Positions 3,193 through 51,027 of a stretch of 64,000 nt of DNA are shown here, one piece after another. The stretch covers positions 4,774,001-4,838,000 of the forward strand of contig CP110630.1 in NCBI GenBank assembly GCA_026210745.1. Reading direction: 5' to 3'. The notes beneath the pieces are model-generated. The model was given only the letters and a program-made list of their open reading frames with translations, was not told the DNA's origin and searched no databases. A program made the translations under genes and the position numbers. Within the stretch, counting starts at the first letter, position 1. Every line of letters begins with the position of its first letter. The DNA comes from Exobasidium rhododendri. Taxonomy: Eukaryota; Basidiomycota; Exobasidiomycetes; Exobasidiales; Exobasidiaceae.

Positions 3193-3324
3193 GTCGATCT
3201 TGGGTGCAAGGCTGTATGAGGCTTCGAAATAAGACAGTGTCTACGATCTGACGACACTGACTGACTTACGGCAACTGTTAGTTGAACGTCTCTTGGAGAG
3301 GGTGACAGGCTGGTCCACCAAATA

Positions 3325-3330
3325 CACGTG
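3325..3330. promoter_or_regulatory. CACGTG box upstream of NDUFA5
   Basis: A CACGTG palindrome lies 133 bp upstream of the NDUFA5 start codon. Such boxes bind bHLH factors of the Cbf1 type. The surrounding AAATACACGTGC (3320-3331) equals the inner edge of the neighbouring element's terminal repeat, so it may instead be a relic of an older insertion. Function is inferred. Confidence 0.3.
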
Positions 3331-3355
3331 CAGAGAAAGAGGTCCCATTTGTATA

Positions 3356-6206
3356 CCATGCGCTACTACCATGCGCTACCACTAGTAAATACACGTGCGT
3401 TTTTCGACCACTAGTGAATACGCCGTGTACGACATGCTGTATCACCATGACCGCTTGTCCAATGTAGAATAGCTCCTAACAAAATAGAATTGTATGAAAA
3501 TTTTGAGCAACCTTGTCTGAACCAAAAAGTGTGAAACATGCCGTTTTGAGTGAGCTGCTCTAAGTGTGAAATTTTATTAGGCCCTTAAAAACCAGTCAAA
3601 AAGTCCCGGGAACGCGAACACCATACACGGTGTATTGATGGCCACCACGATGCTACCATAACATCCTCCGAAAAGTATGAGACTTTGATACATTGTGTAA
3701 AATTATAGTATTATATATATGGGGTGTGAAAAAAAATGAGAAGATACATATGAAAGAGAGGAGATATAGAGGTATCGAGCCACTACGCCAGAAGGGTCAA
3801 TACTACAAAAAAAGTCATGGTCACGGTACAAAGTTTACGCGATTCTAGCTCTGTTGCCTCAGCGCAATGGTTTTAAGCTTCGAAAACTTGTGTATAGCAT
3901 CCTAAGTATCGTATCTAGCACTCCATTCATTTAGAATGACCATTTGTTCTCAATAAGGGCGTGTCGGTACAAGTTTCTCAACCTCACTTTAATTGACCCC
4001 CAAAAACAGACTCGACTTCAATTATCTCCTTCTTTTGTCAAAATGTTGTATTTTGGGACTTAGTAGATGTTTTAGCTGTATATCAGAGCAATGTATGCTA
4101 TTAATACTATTTGCCCTAAAAGAGCCTGCAGATCACACAAATGAGCTTCGTAGATGGTAAAATGGTCAAATTTGGGTCATTATGGCAGTTTCACGGTCCT
4201 AAAATGACCCGATTTTGCTATCTTATCTGATAGACGTCGTGTTGAGTTCATACTATGCAAATATATGCAAAATTAGTGGGAAAAACGATTCAATGCTTAA
4301 AAATGACCAATTATTAATCATGCTGACGAGTAAACGGCCTTTAAAGCTTTTCAAGTTCATTTTCAATGGTGTACCCGATCAGCATGATTCTGGGCTTGAC
4401 ATACCCCAAAAGCAACTTTGTACCTAATAAAAGTTGTTCATTACTATCTTCTGTATCGTTTTCTGCTTTTAAATTTGTATATTATTAATGAGAATATGCT
4501 GCAAAACAAGATACCGCTGACACCATGGTGCAAAATTTCTAAAAAATGATGGCGTAGCTCGTATTTTTCAGTGATAGCTTTTTGGACGCGCACGAAACCG
4601 ACACACCATCTTCTCTTATAGGAAAACTTCATCAAATTTCATCAGAGCGTTTAAGTTACATAGGGGGGGTAATCCGATAGGAGTGCATGGTCATGCCTGC
4701 GGCGTCAGAGGGCGCAAATAGGGGCCAGGAGAGCGTCAATCGGGTGTTTTCACGTTCCCGAAATCACGTGTATTTACTAGTGGTAGCGCATGGTACTATT
4801 AAATACACGTGTGTTTTTTGACCACTATTGAATACGCCGTGTACGACATGCTGTATCACCATGACCGGTCCCCCAATGTAAAGTAGTCTCTAATGAAATA
4901 AAATTGTATGAATGTTCTGAACAAATTTGTCTGAAAGAAGAAGGGTGCATCATGCCGTTTTGACTGAGCTGCTCTAAGTGTGAAATTTTATTAGGCCCTA
5001 AAAATTCAGTCAAAAAGTCCCGGGAACGCAAACACCATACACGGTGTATCGAAGGCCACCACGATGCTACCATAACATCCTCCGAAAAGTATGAGACTTT
5101 GACACATTGTGTAAAATTATAGTATTGTATATATGGGGTGTGAAAAAAAATGAGAAGATACATATGAAAGAGAGGAGATATAGAGGTATCGAGCCACTAC
5201 GCCAGAAGGGTCAATACTACAAAAAAAGTCATGGTCACGGTACAAAGTTTACGCGATTCTAGCTCTGTTGCCTCAGCGCAATGGCTTTAAGCTTCAAAAA
5301 CTTGTATATAGCATCCTAAGTAGCATATCTAGCACTCTGTTCATTTAGAATGAGCTCTTGTTCTCAATAAGGGCGTGACGATACAACTTTTATCAACCTC
5401 ACTTTTGTTGACCCAAAAAACAGACTCGACTTCAATTATCTCCTTCTTTTGTCACAATAATGTATTTTGGGACTTAGTAGATGTTTTAGTTGTATATCAG
5501 AACAATGTATGCTATTAATACTATTTGCCCTAAAAGAGCCTGCAGGTCACGCAAATGAGCTTCGTAGATGGTAAAATGGTCAAATTTGGGTCATTATGGC
5601 AGTTTCACGGTCCTAAAATGACCCGATTTTGCTATCTTATCTGATAGACGTCGTGTTGAGTTCATACTCTACAATTATATGCGAAATTAGTGGGAAAAAC
5701 GAATTAATGCTTAAAAATGACCAGTTATTAATCATGCTGACGAGTAAACGGCCTTTGTAGCATTTCATGGTCATTCTCAATGGTGTACCCGATCAGCATG
5801 ATTCTGGAATCAATACACAATAAATTCAGTTTTGAACTTAATAGAAGTTGTTCATTACTATCTTCTGTATTGTCTCATTTTCTTAAATTGTAAGTTATTA
5901 ATGAGAATATGCTACAAAGCAAGATACCGCTGACACCATGGTGCAAAATTTCTAAAAAATGAGGGCGTAGTGCGTATTTCTCAGTGATAGCTTTTTGGAC
6001 GCGCACAAAACCAACACACCATCTTCTCTTATAGGAAAACTTTGTCAAATTTCATCAGAGCGTCTATTTTACATAGGGAGAGTGATCTGATAGGAGTGCA
6101 TGGTCATGCCTGCGGCGTCAGAGGGCGCAAATAGGGGCCAGGAGAGCGTCAATCGGGTGTTTTCACGTTCCCGAAATCACGTGTATTTAATAGTAGTAGC
6201 GCATGG
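3356..6206. mobile_element. Outer copy (B) of a non-autonomous TA-flanked TIR element, interrupted by copy A
   Basis: Copy B runs from 3356 to 3368 and then from 4796 to 6206, about 1,424 bp once the inserted copy A (3369-4793) and one TA (4794-4795) are removed. It is flanked by TA on both sides (3354-3355 and 6207-6208). The rejoined left end equals the reverse complement of the right end (6178-6206) at all 29 positions, so the inverted repeats are perfect. They begin CCATGCGCTACTA and end ATTAAATACACGTG. The body is AT-rich compared with its flanks and has no recognisable coding sequence; the longest open frame (about 110 codons) is unlike any transposase. A TA duplication suggests mobilisation by a Tc1/mariner-like enzyme encoded elsewhere, which is inference. 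Confidence 0.85.
3369..4793. mobile_element. Inner copy (A) of the same element, inserted into the left inverted repeat of copy B
   Basis: Copy A is 1,425 bp with perfect 29-bp terminal inverted repeats (3369-3397 and 4765-4793) and TA at both edges (3367-3368 and 4794-4795). Removing it together with one TA restores the left repeat of copy B exactly, so this is a nested insertion and not a tandem duplication. Its body aligns with copy B along the whole length. Some stretches of more than 250 bp are almost identical, for example around 3720-3860 against 5130-5280; others, near the ends and around 3470-3540, are clearly diverged. Copy A has no coding capacity. Both copies carry a CACGTG palindrome at the inner edge of each inverted repeat. 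Confidence 0.88.
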
Positions 6207-6672
6207 TAAGAAGGCCCCAGATAGAGCTACCGTATGTAATCGATATCTTATCGTTATGAGAAAGGAATAGAAAACGTGTAAGACTTTCGTTCGAATCGAC
6301 CGCGACGGAGCTAGTGCAGCCAGAGAGGAGGTGGTAATATTTGGCTCGCGTTGATGAGACTTCGAAGGGGGAGAACTTAATCCAAAGAGGGAGAAAGTGT
6401 GTCAGATCAAAGTCTTCTCATCCTCTACAGACAGTCTTCGACTAAAGACCACAGCAGTCAACACCATCATCGACCTGTCAGGAGACAATACTAGCAGCAC
6501 AAGATCCAAGACTGCGATTGGCATTCGATCCATCGAGTGCTTGAGGCGGGCGTTTCCTCTCCTTTGGCTCTCCTCCTCTTCCCTGCTCTCCTTTTCAACT
6601 CCTATTCGATCGCTTTGGACTTATCTCGACGTATCTACCTCACAGCTACTGAAAGACTAGAAGCAGCCAGCA
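6207..6672. other. Upstream region of the Sds3-like gene
   Basis: This stretch lies between the element's right end and the start codon of the next gene. An ordinary open frame (6397-6660) shows no family resemblance and is more likely 5' untranslated leader. No clear TATA box or repeat is seen. Confidence 0.4.
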
Positions 6673-40351: not shown

Positions 40352-43300
40352 ATGATAGACTTTGACCGAGAAGATGACTTCTCCCCCTCTTGGCAGATCG
40401 AAGCAGATCCGGACCCCAGCATTCAGCTTCAGACGATCATTAGCAAGGGTGAAGAGAAGACTTTATGCCTCAATCCAAGGCAGTATCAGGTGAGCTTCGT
40501 AGCGTGAGGAAGCATTCTACTACCCTGTCAACGGTATTGTACCTTTCCTTCAGTCACAGATGTTCGAAAGGGCGAAGAGAGAGAACATCATTGCTTGCAT
40601 GGGTACGGGTAGCGGCAAGACACTGGTCAGCGTCATGTTGTTGAAGGTGGGCAGCATGATCATTACGAATCTCGCCAGTGAATCGGAGACTAAGACGAGT
40701 CTCTTCTCTCACAGTATGTCTTTAATGAAGAGGCTGCTCAGCTACAAACGATGGGAAGCAAATGCAAGAAAAGAATATCTTTCTTTCTCGGTGAGGGGGC
40801 ACTTCGACTGATGTCGCAGGTAGCAGCACGTCCTTATGCACCTTGCCCTGTCTCTTCCCTGTCCAGTGAATAAGATCCCCCTGGTCGATCAGCAAGCGAA
40901 AGTGATCGAGAACAATTCCTACCTCAAAGTTGAGAAAGTCTTTGGAGACTCTAGCAAAAGAGTGGAGAAGAGTAGACTTGCGTTTCGATTCGACATGTTG
41001 ATACAGCAAAGTCAGTGTGATGTCATTGTTGCAACGGCACAGACGGTGCTGGATGCCCTGGTGCATGACTTCCTCAAGATGGAAGACATCAATCTGATTG
41101 TGTTTGATGAAGTTCACCATGCTATCAAGATGGACGCTTACGCTAGGATCATGCAAGATCATTACTTCAAGAGTACGCTGGAGAATCGTCCAAAAATCTT
41201 TGGCATGACGGCGAGTCCACTTAAATCAGACGGTGACTACCAAAAGGCCATTGGCAAGCTACAGAACATGATGGATGCAAGGGTCTTTACGGCTTCACTT
41301 GAATTACGAAGGGAGCTTGAGACTGTCTGCAAACCACCGCAAGAACAGATCATCGAGTACGATGCAGCAACACCGATGAAAAAGGGTGCCCTCGCACGAA
41401 AAATTGAGGCAGAATGCGGTCATTTGGAAGGTGTCGAGAAGCTCCTGGGAAGGATGGCATTTGCTGATCAAGAACAAGGACCTCTCATGTCTGACCTGAC
41501 TTGGTTGGGCTCGTCCGAGGAGATCAAAGGTCGAATGCTTCGTAAGTTGGAGCAATCCGAAGCACACATGCCTGACACTAGACTGCTCAGTAAGGAGTGG
41601 ATCCAGCAAAAGGCGAAAGAAGCGACTCTTGAGAAAGCAAACAATGTGAATGCGAGCGGCACGAGTGCAAAATACATCAAAGATGCTGTTGCGTGTAGTG
41701 CTGTCAACGAGGTAATCATGGCCCACGATCCCATCCCTGATCTTCTCGAAGTCAGTTTCACCAACGCTACCCCAAAGATTCTCAAGATGATCGAAGTGCT
41801 CAAGTTGTGTGGATCATCTCCTGCCTTGCGACGCAATTTTTGCTGTATCATGTTCGTCGAACGACAAAGGACGGCGATCGCTCTGACAGAACTGCTCAAG
41901 AGGATGGCAGAATTGAAGAGCTGGCTGAAGCCTGAATGGATCATCGGTCACAATACCGATCAAGGGGACGGCATGGACCCCAAAGCACAAGCAGCAACAC
42001 TTCGACGATTCGGCACGGCAGGATCGACAAATTTGCTCATCGCCACCAATGTAGCGGAAGAGGGACTAGACATCTCCCCCTGTAATTGCGTCATTCGTTT
42101 TGACCTCTTCGCTCATCATACGGGATACCTGCAGAGCAAAGGAAGAGCCAGAAGCAATCATAGTCGCTTCATCGTTCTTTTGGAAAAGGAAAATGCAGAT
42201 CATTACAATCTGGTCAGCAAGGTGGCTACGACGGATCAAGAGATTACAGATTGGCTGAAAGGTCTGTCGCAAGAGCAAGGTGCTATTGCTAGCATGAATC
42301 TGGAGGAAGAGGAGTGCGACGATGCAGACGACTACTCATATCAACTCGCCATCCATTCCAAGACTACAGATGCTTGCATCCGACCGATTGACTGCATTTC
42401 TCTCGTTTGCTACTATGTGGACCTTCTGCGAAAAGATGAGTTTAGCGTTCCAAAGCCGGAGTTTTTCCAGAACCAAGAGGCGGCCTCTGGGTTCCAAACA
42501 CAGATCCGTCTGCCTGCAAATGCAAAGATTCGAGTGGTCGATGGACCTTGGTGCTCCTCTAAGAAGAAAGCTCGTCGGATGGCCTGCTTTGAAGCCTGCA
42601 AACAACTGTACGAAGTAAACGAGCTTGATGAGAATTTACTGCCAAGGAAGATTCCAAAAGTGCCAGTCGTTCGAGCGGCCCTGTACGCCAAGAGAAGCAG
42701 AGCAAAGGGCGCAAGTGGCAATCTCAACACTATCAGAAGAAAGACGCCACAGGTCTATGGAGACGGAATACCGCGAGGAGAGTTCGTTCAAGGGTCAATG
42801 ACTCTCCACGCCATCATAGTCGATGTGCAAGCAGCTCTTGCTGATCACGTCACCAGTCGACCCATCTTACTGCTCTTCCCTTCTCCCGTCAATGCGTTTC
42901 CCAGTGTGGAGATGTTCACGAGTTCTTCCCAAACCATTCCCGCCACCAAAAGCAGTGTTGCAATCAGTCTGACAGAGGCGGAAGCAAAGCAAGCATGTCT
43001 CTACAGCGACCGAGTTTTGTCTTTGATTGGACGTCAACAGTACCTGGGTGACAAGATGCCCTACCTCGTCTTACCGACGACCACTACTCCATTGCGTGAC
43101 CATCTACTGATCGACAAGAAGATCATCGATTGGGTCGAAGTAGGAAGATCCGCAGTCCCACTAAGTATGAAGCTTGACTACAGTGCCTTCGTCGACGCAG
43201 AATCGACAAAGGATATATTAGTCCACGAATACAAGGGCGTGCTCTCCCAAAGACTGTACGAGGTGCTGTCTTTGATCAACACGTCTGATCATGACGATGG

Positions 43301-45221
43301 ACAGGGTACGTCATCTATCGGTACCCGAGCTCGAACGTGTGAAGGGCTAGTGGACGGCGGACCCGCTCTACGTTGTCGACCTATCCTACGACAGGGCAAT
43401 CTCCTGGAGAATATCAAGCGAAATGACGCAGACAAGTGCGACACCCTTCGGGACATACGACTTGCTAGCGTGGTAGCATGCTCAGCGAGTTTCTATCGAA
43501 GTTGCACAGTATTGCCTTCGCTTCTTTATCGATACGATCAAGTGTTGCTTGCCAGGGAGCTTAACAAGGACTTGTTCGGAAGCGTAATCAGAGAAGAGTC
43601 CCTACTGGAAGCCCTGACCATCCCTGAGGCGCATCAGAGAATCAACTATCAAATCTTGGAGTTCTTCGGAGATGGCTATCTGAAGTTGCTGGCTTGCTGT
43701 TGGGCTTTCTCCAAGTGTGATAGTCACCAAGAAGGAGATCTCCATCTAGAGTGCGCGAAAAAGATCAGTAACAAAGCGCTACTGCAGATTGCGATTGAGA
43801 AAGAGCTTGCAACATACGCATCCAGTCACACATTCACGCAGAAGAATTGGTGTCCTCCCATGCTTGGTAGAAGTAGAGAGGCAGCAGCAGCAGCAGCAGC
43901 AGTAGAGGAGGATAAGATGGAGGATGAGATGGAGGGGGCGACGGAGGAGGCATCCGGAGTGGTCTTCAGATTGCCAGATAAAGGAATGGCTGACATTGTA
44001 GAGGCCATCCTTGGAGCCGGGCTTGCAAGCTCTCCGTCTCTTGATCTCAGTGTAGTCTGCCAGTGTGCGCAGAAGTTGGGCATTCTAGGAGTAGATGTGT
44101 CCACCAAGCTGCAAGATTTTCAAACCATGTTCTACGACGTCGTTCGACCAAAGGAGATGCAAGGTTCATGGCATGCCAGGGTGGAATCGGGCACACTGGC
44201 TCGACTTCAGGAAAAATTGCAGTATACGTTCCGGTCCCCTCACTTAGCACTGGAAGCCGTGACTCACTCTTCTCTCTTGGAGTCTGATCTACCCTCGTAC
44301 GAAAGATTGGAGTTTTTAGGCGACGCCGTACTTGATTTCCTGGTTGTTGATCTGATCAAGGGCAAGTTTCCAAATTTGAATGAAGGTGGCTATACCATGA
44401 TCAAGCAGAACGCTACGTGTAATTCCTCTCTCTCTGTCCTTTGCATAGAGTCCGATCTCCACTTGCATAGCTTCCTGCTTCATGGCTCCGCCATGATATC
44501 GGAGAGCGTGGCAGCGTACAAGACGGACCTAGCCATGGCCAAAAAGGCAGCGGCGGAAGACGAAGGAGGAGTGTATACGGGCAACGGTGAAGACATGTTT
44601 CCCTACTGGTCTGATCTGAAGGCACCAAAGATACTGGCGGATGTAGTGGAGAGTATGCTGGGCGCCGTCTTTGTCGACTCTGGCTTCAATCTCAGCACTG
44701 CAAAAGAATACTTTGACAAGTTCTATAGACATCACTTTGAATCTTACTTTCGCCCAGAGACGTCGGTGGTACGAACTCCCTGGGATTTCATACAATTTGT
44801 TCATTACCATCAGTGTACCGAGTGGGATCTGCTTCTGGAAGATGTCGAAGGAGAAGGAGAAGAAGGCGAAGGTCTTGCTGATCATGACGCGGAAGAACAC
44901 TGTGTGTTGTCTTCCCTAGTCATACACAATGTCGTGATCGCTCGACGTCTATCGAGGGGTCTCAAAGCCAATCGTATCCGAGACAAGAGCAAGCAAGAAT
45001 TGGATAACATCCGCAAATTAGCATTAACCCAAGACTTGTCCTCACAAGACCATCGAGACATCAAAGCCATACTCCAACACTCTTTGCCCCTCGACTTTAT
45101 TCGTGATAGCGTCAAGTCTTCCGATGTAGATGAAAGCGGACAATGTGTTCAAGAAGACTTCAGGAAGACAAATCAGATCACTGCCCTGCAATCGCTCTGC
45201 ACCTGCAAACGCAGGCCTTAG
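40352..45221 (+). CDS. Dicer-type ribonuclease III
   Basis: Cuts double-stranded RNA into small interfering RNAs, the entry point of RNA silencing. Exons 40352-40489, 40554-40646, 40715-40790 and 40867-45221 give 1,553 aa. Domains in order: helicase with Walker A GTGSGKT (residues 63-69) and DEVH (183-186); helicase C with SKGRARSNHSR near 526; the dimerisation domain (DUF283) around 590-680 with VVDGPWCSSKKKARRMACFE; RNase IIIa with LEFFGDGYLK near 1030 and ADIVEA near 1144; RNase IIIb with YERLEFLGDAVLDF near 1247 and ADVVESMLGAVF near 1360. All catalytic acidic residues of both RNase III domains are kept. Between residues 760 and 900 I cannot recognise a PAZ domain. The C-terminus has only a weak double-stranded-RNA-binding pattern. 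RNase IIIa contains an Ala run and an acidic insert. The three small first exons restore helicase motifs, which supports the joins. Confidence 0.95.
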
Positions 45222-46274: not shown

Positions 46275-49200
46275 ATGCCACCAGTCGAAATGAATGGCGG
46301 AAGCAACGACGGGCCCGACAAAAGGACGACAGCTTACGAAAATATTTTTGGTAGACCAACAGCCAAGCCAAAGGGGCCTAACAATGCCTTTCCTGCTAAT
46401 GGCAATGGCCATCCACCAGTGCCGGTACCGACTAATCATTGGGTGAATCAACAGGCATACTTGGCAGGTCAGCAAGCTCAACGATACAATAGCATTCCTC
46501 CAGGGAGTGGTCCTTCGGCTCCTTATCGAAACCCACAGCAAGCGTACGGATATGCCCCTCCTCAACCACCCCTGCAACAGGAAGTGATTGATAGAAGAAT
46601 CAGTGTAGCACCTAGTTCAGCTTCTCAAGATTCAAGAATGTCGACATACCTTCCCGGAGGGAATTACAATCTTGCTAGTGCAGCTGATGCTTATGGAGGA
46701 CCCTCGAATCAAACACCTTACTATCAAGTTGCCACTGCTGCCCCCTTCTTACGCTCAACCTCAGCTTCCCCTGCACCGATACATCGACCTTTACCTTCGA
46801 TATATGGCGCTCAAACAGAGGGAATCGTAGATCGAGGTTCTACTTCCAGTGCTGCCTTGCCTCCCTATGCCAGCCAGTCCTCCAATATAGGCGTTATTCC
46901 CCCAGATGAATCGTCTTCTTACAAGGCGGCGCCTCGTCTACCTAGTTTCGACCTTACACAACAAAATGCAAGCTCGGAAGACTTATGGTTCACCAATGGG
47001 AATGGGGCGACAAGCAATGGCGGACAGGTGCCGACGAGATCACCACCTGTGGTAGAAGAAGAGATGGATCCGGCCAGTCCCGCAATCCAGTCTCTCGCCA
47101 ATCTCGACGTTTCTGAGAGGGATGAAAGCGCAATAGGCGATGAAGGGATGTATCGTAATGGTAAGTCATCATTTGGCATCATGATTGTTCTACCGCTGAC
47201 GAACGTATACACACACTCTCTCTCACGAACACGGAACTCACCCAGACTACCAAGAGTATCAGCGACAACTGTATGGTCAATCCAGAGCTTCATCGATACG
47301 AAAGAATTCGTTTGACTCTGATCGACAAAGTATCGCCAACTCGCTGTACAACGTTGTTGCTGGGACGACAAGTGCAAATTCGAGAATGTATCCTGGTCAA
47401 GGAGTGCCTAGTGGTGGCTACTTTCAGCCTTCCGGCCTGATGCCACATGGAAGTGAAACGTCTTCTACGACCTGGGGAAAGCAATCGAGGATGCGGACGA
47501 CATCAAGTGCGACAACTCAAGCTGTTCCTTACCAAGAATCATCAAATAATGATTGGAGGAGAAGCGTGGAGTCGGGCATGGGAAATGGCGGAGGGAGAGC
47601 CATGTCTTTTGGACAGCAGAGTGCTCCGAGTAGACCGATGGCTACATCGCCTCACGGTAGTGTCAAAGACGTCCATCCTTCACTTCCGTTGCAGAGTCGT
47701 CGCGGACCGATCGTCTATCCAGCTCTACTCTCCAAAGTAGCAGAAGCGTTCAAGGCGAGGGTCAACTTGACAGAAAGGCAAAAGGACGGACTATCGTACA
47801 CCGATTCATTTGATGGGAGAGAAGCGGTAGATCGAATTGCGTACATCATCAAGACTACGGATCGAAATTTGGCCTTACTGTTAGGTAGAGCGTTGGATGC
47901 GCAAAAATTCTTTCATGACGTTACCTATGATCATCGTCTGAGAGACTCACCCAACGAACTTTATCAATTCCGCGTCCGACTAACAAGTCCTTTTGAAAAG
48001 GAAGAAGAGATGTACGAAGACGCTGTAGAGTACCGGACAAACAATGGAGCGAAATTGGGTGTGCCGGGTATGAAGAGTAGCGCGCCTTCCAGGGAGAATT
48101 CCACCTCGACACTTCAGGACAGCGATAAGATCAATCGACTGAGCACTGTATCTCCCTCGATCAAGCGACAGGAATCAGAGCTTGCGACGGACGACGAAGA
48201 AGATGCGCTTCCGACGGGAGTCTTCACCTTGCTCACGGATTGTTACAGTCCAACGTGTACGCGTGATCGACTGTGTTACAGCATCGCCTGTCCAAGAAGA
48301 CTGGAGCAGCAAGCAAGGCTTAACATGAAGCCTCAACCGGGACTCAAGCGGAGTATCAGTAAAGAGAGTCTGGGCGACGTCAAAGATCAAGGCGCCTTAT
48401 GGGCCGAGTCTGTTTCTGAAGAGATCCTCAAGAGCGTTTCAGACGAAGAACGGAAGAGGCAGGAACTCATCAACGAGGTCATCTACACCGAGCGAGACTT
48501 TGTGAGAGACCTAGAGTACCTTCGCGATCAGTGGATTAAACCGCTACGATCTCGCGACATAGTTCCGGACGCCAAGAGGGAGGACTTTGTCACGCAAGTG
48601 TTCTGGAACGTGCTCGAGATCCACAGTGTGAATTCCAAGTTGGCCGAGATGCTGACGAAGCGACAGAAGCAGCAGTCGGTGGTGGAGAGAATAGGCGATA
48701 TCTTGCTGGAGATGGTACCTTACTTTGCTCCATTTGTCAAGTACGGAGCCCATCAACTGTACGGTAAGTATGAGTTTGAAAAGGAGAAATCAGCGAATGC
48801 CGCCTTTATGAAGTTCGTGGATCAAACGGAACGACTTCCTGAAAGTCGTAAGCTAGAGTTGAACGGATACCTGACAAAGCCGACGACGAGACTGGCAAGG
48901 TACCCTCTCCTGCTGGAAGCCGTCGTCAAGGCGACACCCGACGACAATCCAGACAAGCAGTCTCTGCCGAAAGTCATCAAGATTGTCAAGGAATTCTTGA
49001 GCAAAGTGAACACGGAAAGTGGAAAGAGTGAGAATCGGTTCAATTTGGCTCAATTAGATCAGCAATTAGTCTTCAAGCAAGGTGAAGCGGTTGATCTGAG
49101 GCTGCGAGATGAACAGCGTGAGCTCGTCTTTAAAGGCCCACTGAAGAAGAGGGGTGGCACGCAGAGTGAAAGCGCCGAATTGCAGGTTTTCCTCTTCGAT

Positions 49201-51027
49201 CACGCTTTGTTGATGGTAAAGGCAAAGACTGTGCACAAGAACGACCTGTACAAGGTGTTTCGGAAGCCCATTCCGCTTGAGTTGCTCATAGTGACAGTCT
49301 ACGATGAAGTGCCGACCGGCAAAGGTAGTGCTACGAGGCCAAAGTCTGTCATGTCAAAGACGTCTACAGGTAATAGACTGAGCGGACAAGTTCCCACTGG
49401 CTCTGCTCCCAAGCAAGATCAAAAGACGGGCTATGCTCTCACTTTCACCTACCTGGGAAGGAAGGGCTATTCCCAAACACTCTGGGCGAATACCTTTGTC
49501 AGTCGAAAGAAGTGGTTCGAGAACATCGAGAAGCGACAAGAGATCCTGCGCCAACGATCCAACATCTTCGACACGATTACCCTGGCAGACGGCTTCTTCA
49601 GTGGACCTAGTCGAGTAACTTGCAGTGTTCCCTTTGACTTTGGTAGACGGATCATCTATGGCGCAGACGATGGAGTGTACCTGAGCGATCTACGAGAGAG
49701 GGCAAGAGCGCCAACGAAGGTCTTACCACTACCAGGAGTAACGCAAGTGGATGTTCTGGAAGAGTATCAGATCTTGATCATCTTGGCAGAAAAGAGCGTC
49801 TACACATTCACACTAGACGCACTCGATCCGACTGATCCAGTGGGAAGTTTGAAGAGGGGGAGAAGAATATCCTCGCATACTTCCTTTTTCAAGGCTGGCC
49901 AATGCTTAGGGCGCACTCTGGTCTGCGTGGTCAAGTCGTCGTCTTTGTCCTCCACCATCAAGACTCTGGAGCCCATCGAGCAGAACTTGCGGGTGGGAAA
50001 GAAGCAACAGACGTTCCGGAAGCTGCTTCAAGGAGGACAGGATAGTCTGCGCGTCTTCAAAGAGTTCTACATCCCCACCGAAAGCAGCAGCATTCACTTC
50101 TTGAAGACGAAGCTCTGTGTTGGGTGCACCAAGGGATTCGAGATTGTCGATCTGGAGACGCTGGACACGCAAGGCCTGCTGGATCCGGCCGACAGCAATC
50201 TTGACTTTGTTCAGAAGAAGGAGAATGTTCGACCGATTGCCATCTATCGCATCGACGGGGAATTCCTCCTCTGCTACGACGACTTTGCATTCTACGTCAA
50301 CAAGAACGGTTGGAGGTCAAAGGGGAACTGGATAATACACTGGGAAGGCAATCCCACTTCCTTTGCTCTTCATCATCCTTACGTCCTGGCGTTTGAGCCA
50401 AGTTTCATCGAAGTTCGTCACGTATCCACCGGTGCCTTGCATCAGGTTATTACTGGCTACAATCTGCGTTGCCTGTTCGCAGATGTGCCACCGCCTTCCT
50501 CTGGCAGCGGTTCAAGTTCTAGCTCGAGTGCTTCCTCTGTCGCTTCATCTACGCTTCACGGCCATGCTGGGATGGGCACAATGACACCGTACGGTCGACC
50601 GACCCCACCGATGCATTATGCCATTGGAGCACCGCCGTACAACAATAATGCGCTTTCAAGACAGCAGAGCTTCAATATGCTCAACCAAACACCACCACAG
50701 CAAATTCTACCACCACCACAGCAGGGTGGCCTATATACGCCCTCTCCTCCGTTTGCAAGTCGACCTTCGTACGGAGCGCCGACGATGCCAGGTCAAACAC
50801 CACCGCCACCACACATGTACAACAGACAACCATCTCAACAACATCCACCAGGGATGCCTTATGCATTCACTCAACCACCTCCACCTTCGCGACAAACTTC
50901 TGTTCAACGCAACCCAGTCTGGGAAAGCGTGGCCGCCAGTCGGAACCAAATTGTCTTTATAGGGGACACGACCGTCTTCTGTGTCCGCCCCGCTGAACAG
51001 ACGAGTGCAAATGCAGGTGCAAAGTGA
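46275..51027 (+). CDS. Rom1/Rom2-type Rho guanine-nucleotide exchange factor (DEP-DH-PH-CNH)
   Basis: Activates Rho1 at the plasma membrane for cell-wall integrity signalling and polarised growth. Exons 46275-47160 and 47246-51027 give 1,555 aa. The first 440 residues are disordered, rich in Pro, Ser, Gln and Tyr. Then come a DEP domain (about 450-540, FKARVNLTERQKDGLSYTDS), a Rom2-typical Cys-rich segment TDCYSPTCTRDRLCYS, the DH domain (about 705-890, RQELINEVIYTERDFVRDLE, LNGYLTKPTTRLARYPLLLE), a PH domain, and a CNH domain (about 1090-1370, RRIIYGADDGVYLSDLRE). The C-terminal 200 residues are Pro/Gln/Ser-rich. The intron splits an Asp codon and its removal keeps the frame. Domain order matches yeast Rom2 and fungal Rgf proteins. 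Confidence 0.95.

Follow-up and report, generated by a model that had tools for sequence, protein, structure and literature searches.

The 64,000 nt stretch of Exobasidium rhododendri contig CP110630.1 analysed here (positions 4,774,001 to 4,838,000, hereafter the window) contains a nested pair of ca. 1.4 kb transposable elements, copies A and B, which are best explained as members of a non-autonomous cut-and-paste family of the pogo superfamily (Fot/Fot-like). Insertion of this family is very probably directed by the palindrome CACGTG, a word that also forms the inner end of its own terminal inverted repeats (TIRs); that the transposase itself reads this word is, in our estimate, an even matter. 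The host is strain CBS101457, whose genome comprises 17.65 Mb in four contigs, three of them of 7.13, 5.45 and 4.98 Mb. According to PMC13010171, four congeners have also been sequenced: E. cylindrosporum, E. phylloplanum, E. vaccinii and E. maculosum.

Copy A (1425 bp) interrupts the left TIR of copy B. Joining positions 3356–3368 to 4796–4811 yields a 29-mer identical, letter for letter, to the reverse complement of 6178–6206, and removal of A plus one TA leaves B with 1424 bp and TIRs that match at 29/29 positions, as do the two 29 bp TIRs of A. The insertion point is the TA at positions 12–13 of the left TIR of B, and this exact reconstruction confirms the initial annotation, which had A jumping into B and, therefore, A as the younger and B as the older element. 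Both copies are 91 % identical (1304/1426 aligned columns). The family comprises 27 complete copies in the genome, 23 of 1418–1426 bp, two of 651 bp and two of 2.9 kb, plus a 564 bp relic (L054). The ends first drawn for the nested pair recur, position by position, in all 27 complete copies and are thus not due to chance, with TIR letters that fall into three types; the proposed TA target duplication is equally general, because a TA lies on each side of every copy, followed by a variable base and with only a weak consensus adjoining it. A genome-wide search with the TIR pattern, allowing up to three mismatches, returned 54 matches: 52 copy ends (50 without mismatches and two with one), an end of the relic and a match presumed to be due to chance; the two remaining copy ends were missed because they are split by nested copies. 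Copies L036 and L037, from different loci, differ at a single column, indicating that the family moved recently.

We examined target choice at the 25 non-nested insertion sites of this genome, by computation only. CACGTG occurs 1565 times genome-wide (0.089 per kb), and at 16/25 sites it lies 10–32 bases from the TA, against 0.10 expected from the genome-wide count (P = 1e-32); within 60 bases it is found at 17/25 sites, against 0.27 expected (P = 3e-28). A background of random TAs from the window gave the same outcome (within 30 bases at 15/25 sites, 0.16 expected). Likewise, CACGTG ranked first in a scan of all 6-mers within 45 bases of the sites (16/25, 0.4 expected, P = 4e-23), and the words ranked second to fourth overlap it. 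The motif was never located 0–9 bases from the TA (0/25 sites), both flanks are used, and the median spacing at the 16 sites is 23 bases; in all 54 TIRs CACGTG is the inner end, also 23 bases from the flanking TA. Additionally, TACACGTG, the CACGTG-containing word of TIR types 1 and 2, makes up 9/18 of the target motifs but ca. 15 % of the genomic CACGTG sequences outside TIRs (P = 5e-4). No pair of pre-insertion sites showed similarity at an E value of 1e-3. At the insertion site of B, the sequence at 3320–3330 (AAATACACGTG) is identical to the innermost 11 bases of the TIR. A second pogo family of the same genome showed CACGTG within 60 bases at 0/6 sites (Fisher P = 0.004 versus the main family).

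These counts suggest a mechanism in which the protein recognising the inner TIR end, in all likelihood the transposase via one of its two helix-turn-helix (HTH) domains, would also bind CACGTG in host DNA, from where it would direct strand transfer to a TA at a distance of ca. two helical turns. In a more specific form, to which we give a chance of about one half, the transposase finds its targets by the DNA contact used for its own ends, TACACGTG at ca. 22 bases from a host TA being read as a half-end. A variant that we consider possible, but hold only tentatively, is that a host basic helix-loop-helix (bHLH) protein sitting at E-boxes, and not the transposase, reads CACGTG and tethers the transposition complex, in which case the TIR would carry its motif to bring that protein to the ends of the element. 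The word is the palindrome classically bound by bHLH proteins, such as those of the Cbf1/USF-like type; the second pogo family also contains it three times, with a 21-base spacing; and the loose (10–32 bases), two-sided spacing is tether-like. However, the agreement of the median target spacing with the TA-CACGTG spacing of the TIR, as well as the preference of targets for the TIR-like TACACGTG, fit a TIR-binding protein, and the second family carries the motif yet does not insert near it.

Since every TIR has CACGTG, the TIRs of resident copies are expected to be targets too under CACGTG-directed insertion, and the end of B would have been a favoured one, hence the jump of A. In a second nested pair, the right TIR of L035b is interrupted by a 651 bp copy at its TA of positions 9–10, and taking this copy out leaves L035b with TIRs identical over 29 bp. 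The TAs of the TIR start at positions 9, 12, 15, 18 and 22, that is, 13, 10, 7, 4 and 0 bases from CACGTG, so the two nested insertions, at distances of 10 and 13 bases, occupy the only two TAs of the TIR that respect the minimum of 10 bases seen elsewhere. Nesting in TIRs thus looks non-accidental in both pairs, and a CACGTG-directed choice accounts for both. The alternative of chance or local hopping, independent of the motif, appears improbable: transposons are known to nest, Tc1/mariner-like elements hop locally and two family members (L032a and L032b) lie 3 kb apart on contig C3, but uniform use of TAs predicts 0.004 insertions in TIRs against the two seen (P for two or more, 9e-6, or 2e-4 if merely one fifth of the genome tolerates insertion), the nested TAs keep the same distances from CACGTG as the non-nested sites, and no copy was found in the body of another, despite bodies holding 93 % of the TAs of the elements.

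Slightly less probable still is that the motif is a by-product, with insertions landing and surviving in open promoter DNA, of which E-boxes are elements. Transposons often favour open chromatin, and the 35 kb lying 100–800 bases from the insertion sites contain five CACGTG (0.14 per kb), slightly above the genomic density, although three of these five belong to a member of the second pogo family located nearby. Against it, the excess is ca. 100-fold and limited to the 10–32 base band, the drop beyond 100 bases argues against a regional effect, no word unrelated to CACGTG comes close in the 6-mer scan (the best non-overlapping one, CGCACG, had P = 2.7e-5), and the six copies of the other pogo family, in the same genome, lack the excess. 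The least probable alternative is that the flanking motifs are remains of older TIRs, the family re-inserting beside its own debris, because, even if at B and L050 the match to the TIR inner end reaches 11 bases (AAATACACGTG), the TIR search retrieved a single relic end besides intact ends and the presumed chance match, and at most sites the likeness ends at CACGTG or TACACGTG, with variable orientation to the TA and no longer common sequence.

Several observations weigh against our best explanation. At eight of the 25 sites no CACGTG is present within 60 bases (L031, L035b, where it is at 65, L036, L037, L039, L044, L047 and L053), and loss of the motif with age does not explain this for L036 and L037, which are young given their one-column difference; a one-mismatch version occurs at 10–32 bases in three of these eight sites, a raw count whose chance level is only roughly estimated. 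There is no CACGTG in the 3.5 kb locus of the relic either, and its inclusion lowers the count within 60 bases to 17/26. The motif of the likely helper copy, L052, is at 47 bases, beyond the 10–32 band, its TIR type is present in only 8/27 copies, no long copy with the commonest TIR type was found in the genome, and its 582 aa transposase is a predicted model, with an upstream part read differently in the public one (P0001). The evenly spaced motifs of the second family could point to a host factor. Two body-side TAs of the left TIR, 14 and 21 bases from CACGTG, were not hit, which cannot be weighed with only two nested events. Finally, all the evidence for targeting comes from the sequence of one genome. 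Among the matches listed from the open-access literature, titles and abstract openings mentioned neither CACGTG-directed insertion nor this family, which is weak evidence of absence, and such a target choice is not mentioned for Fot/Fot-like elements in the parts of PMC7386202 that were compared.

The two 2.9 kb copies, L052 and L053, contain a pogo transposase gene, on the minus strand, between ends common with the 1.4 kb copies. Removal of four predicted GT-AG introns from L052 produces a stop-free frame of 582 aa, whereas that of L053 is interrupted by three in-frame stops. P0001 (364 aa), the public gene model for L052, shares the last two splice junctions and disagrees upstream, so that our model is to be taken as a prediction. 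Protein CBS101457_002273 of E. rhododendri is 99 % identical over 56 % of the helper transposase and, besides this own annotation, the nearest five proteins are 22–29 % identical. In a domain search, the spliced model matched DDE_1 (PF03184, 50.9 bits, cut-off 22, 1.7e-13), HTH_Tnp_Tc5 (PF03221, 27.3 bits, cut-off 22.2, 3.5e-6) and HTH_psq (PF05225, 23.6 bits, cut-off 20.4, 4.2e-5). With single exon pieces the HTH domains remained above the cut-off and the DDE_1 pieces fell just below it (21.6 and 21.4), which is why a genome search for DDE_1 listed neither L052 nor L053. The second predicted intron of both copies contains a perfect inverted repeat, in which stem bases differ between copies yet still pair, and CGCCATCATTTTT is common to three predicted intron or 5′ stretches of L052.

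A DDE_1-type transposase with a CENP-B-like (HTH_Tnp_Tc5) domain is characteristic of pogo elements, and Tc1/mariner elements in the narrow sense have DD34D or DD34E and no CENP-B-type domain. The L052 product has DD35D, with 35 residues separating the second and third D (residues picked by eye, by motif position), in addition to HTH_Tnp_Tc5. The Tc1/mariner-type helper suggested by the initial annotation was thus right in that a 2.9 kb relative exists that encodes a DDE transposase and has ends of this kind, but this is a pogo and not a narrow-sense Tc1/mariner element. In the parts of the sources consulted, DD35D with HTH_psq and/or HTH_Tnp_Tc5 defines Fot/Fot-like elements (PMC7386202), and DD35D is assigned to groups 33–40, with Fot1 as clade 37 (PMC7325037). 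The same parts of PMC7386202 give target duplications of TAA, TA or TAAA for Fot/Fot-like elements, TA being found among Fot only in FotC and FotD, and also in many Fot-like elements; TIRs of mostly 40–60 bp, ca. 100 bp in FotC, with length not strictly defining; TIRs of up to 40 bp as the class of most pogo families, into which our 29 bp TIRs fall; and lengths of 1.2–5.2 kb for pogo, which include those of this family. Accordingly, as far as those parts allow, it resembles Fot/Fot-like elements in DD35D, the combination of HTH_psq and HTH_Tnp_Tc5, DDE_1, the TA duplication and the fungal host, and differs from most of them in its 29 bp TIRs, the CC start and the four predicted introns. From its predicted domains and DD35D we place the family in the pogo superfamily, Fot/Fot-like, with unusual ends: all 27 complete copies start with CCATG, of which the initial CC had been pointed out in the initial annotation, where the family was not recognised.

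The 1.4 kb copies retain the left part of L052 (ca. 1–434, 73–93 % identity) and most of them also its right part (ca. 2658–2910, 73–91 % over 233–253 bp), but all lack its coding region. Eight full-length copies (L032b and L043–L049) conserve only the last 84 bp of the right part (86–96 %), beside a different right-hand module. Type-1 and type-3 copies differ from L052 at TIR positions 7–12, and hence we only infer that its transposase mobilises them. In place of the transposase gene there is a non-coding filler of ca. 740 bp. No reading frame of this filler is conserved among the 23 copies of 1.4 kb, and its variable columns show no bias by codon phase (115/105/105); for these reasons the earlier statement that neither A nor B encodes a protein stands, despite a 112 aa open frame inside B (4825–5163, minus strand). 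The filler is also not a convincing hidden gene by comparison with L052 and L053 (best E value of 0.034 in a sensitive comparison), a known RNA (a sole Rfam match, with 19.9 bits against a cut-off of 52) or a capture from the host, since an own-genome search with B placed it only in family members, among the best candidates scored. Miniature inverted-repeat transposable elements (MITEs) are usually smaller than ca. 0.6–0.8 kb, non-coding and of high copy number; with 23/27 copies of 1418–1426 bp, the family as a whole is outside this class, and only the two 651 bp copies are within its size range.

Bodies and TIR types have been exchanged between copies, as judged from the pattern of variation. 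Using 350 informative sites in the 23 copies of 1.4 kb, incompatibility of neighbouring sites was 0.191 versus 0.407 after shuffling, and none of 2000 shuffles was as low. Recurrent mutation was rejected as the cause because the signal persists with transversions only and TIRs excluded (0.174 versus 0.351; 0/2000 shuffles), and because incompatibility increases with distance, from 0.15 at less than 20 bases to ca. 0.45 beyond 200. For instance, the first half of L031 is close to B and its second half to L039; the right-hand module of type-2 copies occurs together with type-1 ends in L032b, L035s and L051, and that of type-1 copies together with type-2 ends in L052. The three TIR types are present in 17, 8 and 2 copies. 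Left and right types match in 27/27 copies, with full identity over 29 bases in 18/27. Copies L033 and L036 differ at 33/1435 columns, including the same two mirrored changes in both TIRs. The mirrored TIR positions 7, 8, 9 and 11, which are mutually non-independent, show r2 = 1.0, against an average of 0.147 among 2211 other left-right pairs, whose 99th percentile is 0.82; pairs of left TIR and right module are fairly high (mean 0.47), so that the mirrored signal is partly linkage. We infer either that mobilisation is restricted to matched pairs of ends or that one end is corrected by its counterpart. As in the gene conversion between TIRs of an insertion sequence described in the part of PMC3004938 compared, recombination between the ends of an element could equalise them; that conversion is linked with inversions of a bacterial element, whereas here it would be deduced from matched ends in a fungal family.

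The features of the nested pair are collected in Table 1.

Table 1. Coordinates of copies A and B and of associated motifs in the window
Feature	Position	Strand	Remarks
CACGTG near the insertion site of B	3325..3330		23 bases from the TA of B; within AAATACACGTG (3320-3330)
TA target duplication of B	left 3354..3355, right 6207-6208		
Left TIR of B, outer 13 bases	3356..3368	+	severed by copy A
Left TA of A	3367-3368		final two bases of the outer TIR piece of B
Copy A, younger non-autonomous element	3369..4793	+	TIRs 3369-3397 and 4765-4793
Filler of A, ca. 740 bp, in place of the transposase gene	3803..4541		approximate limits, converted from element coordinates
TA target duplication of A, right copy	4794..4795		
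Left TIR of B, inner 16 bases	4796..4811	+	terminal CACGTG 4806-4811, 10 bases from the TA of A
Copy B, main part, older element	4796..6206	+	1424 bp with 3356-3368; filler ca. 5217-5954
Right TIR of B, 29 bp	6178..6206	-	followed by TA 6207-6208

Variation between C and T in the 23 copies of 1.4 kb was focused at TCG, with 27/28 sites variable versus 277/524 in all other contexts that were fully determined (P = 1.5e-6), and the copies show a depletion of TCG (observed/expected of 0.65, against 1.19 for the remainder of the window). This pattern resembles the signature of repeat-induced point mutation (RIP), and RIP of the TCG type has reportedly been seen in other basidiomycetes. The relic, at C1:1633738-1634301, is decayed and has type-3-like ends and TA flanks.

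The second pogo-type (DDE_1) family, L061–L066, is located at C1:145900-149600 and five other places. Its 1897 bp copies, at least six, are at least 99.9 % identical over 1901–1902 aligned bases and have an open frame of 521 aa, the TIR CAGTAGAACCTCC, a TA on both sides and, near one end, the three CACGTG at exactly 21 bases from each other. It looks freshly active. It was discarded as a helper of the A/B family because the ends are unrelated. Its terminal sequence is found directly to the left of L032b, with its CACGTG triplet further left, and so locus L032 (C3:3493199-3501056), with two copies of the main family 3 kb apart, is a small cluster of both pogo families. Elsewhere in the window, the best solved relatives of an open frame at 40836-45221 are Dicer enzymes, and that of another at 47386-51027 is the Rho exchange factor Rom2; an RNA-silencing enzyme seems to be present in the fungus and could act upon these transposons.

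Like internally deleted transposons and MITEs, such as the fungal mimp and Vader, the 1.4 kb copies are non-coding and keep the ends of an autonomous relative; unlike them, they are 1.4 kb long, have an unrelated filler conserved across three TIR types and are strongly mosaic. In its target choice, the family is comparable to the retrotransposons Tf1, reportedly tethered by the DNA-bound host proteins Sap1/Atf1, and Ty, said to be tethered in a similar way, in that insertions fall close to a DNA motif, on both of its sides and with loose spacing. Nevertheless, those are integrase-based retroelements, and here a cut-and-paste DNA transposon carries the motif fixed in its own TIR.

In the general view, Tc1/mariner and pogo elements require hardly more than a TA for insertion, whereas around two sites in three of this family are at short range of a six-base word that also belongs to its own termini. 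The family would therefore be a natural case of a cut-and-paste transposon whose insertion is aimed at a sequence, and it opens the question of how transposases choose their targets. The combination of reshuffled bodies with ends that are always matched makes the recognition of end pairs testable. Targeting to CACGTG would also explain self-nesting, which is usually ascribed to chance; if the motif is indeed read as a half-end, the element would home to TIR-like sites, its own TIRs included, and nesting would be a built-in by-product of its target choice.

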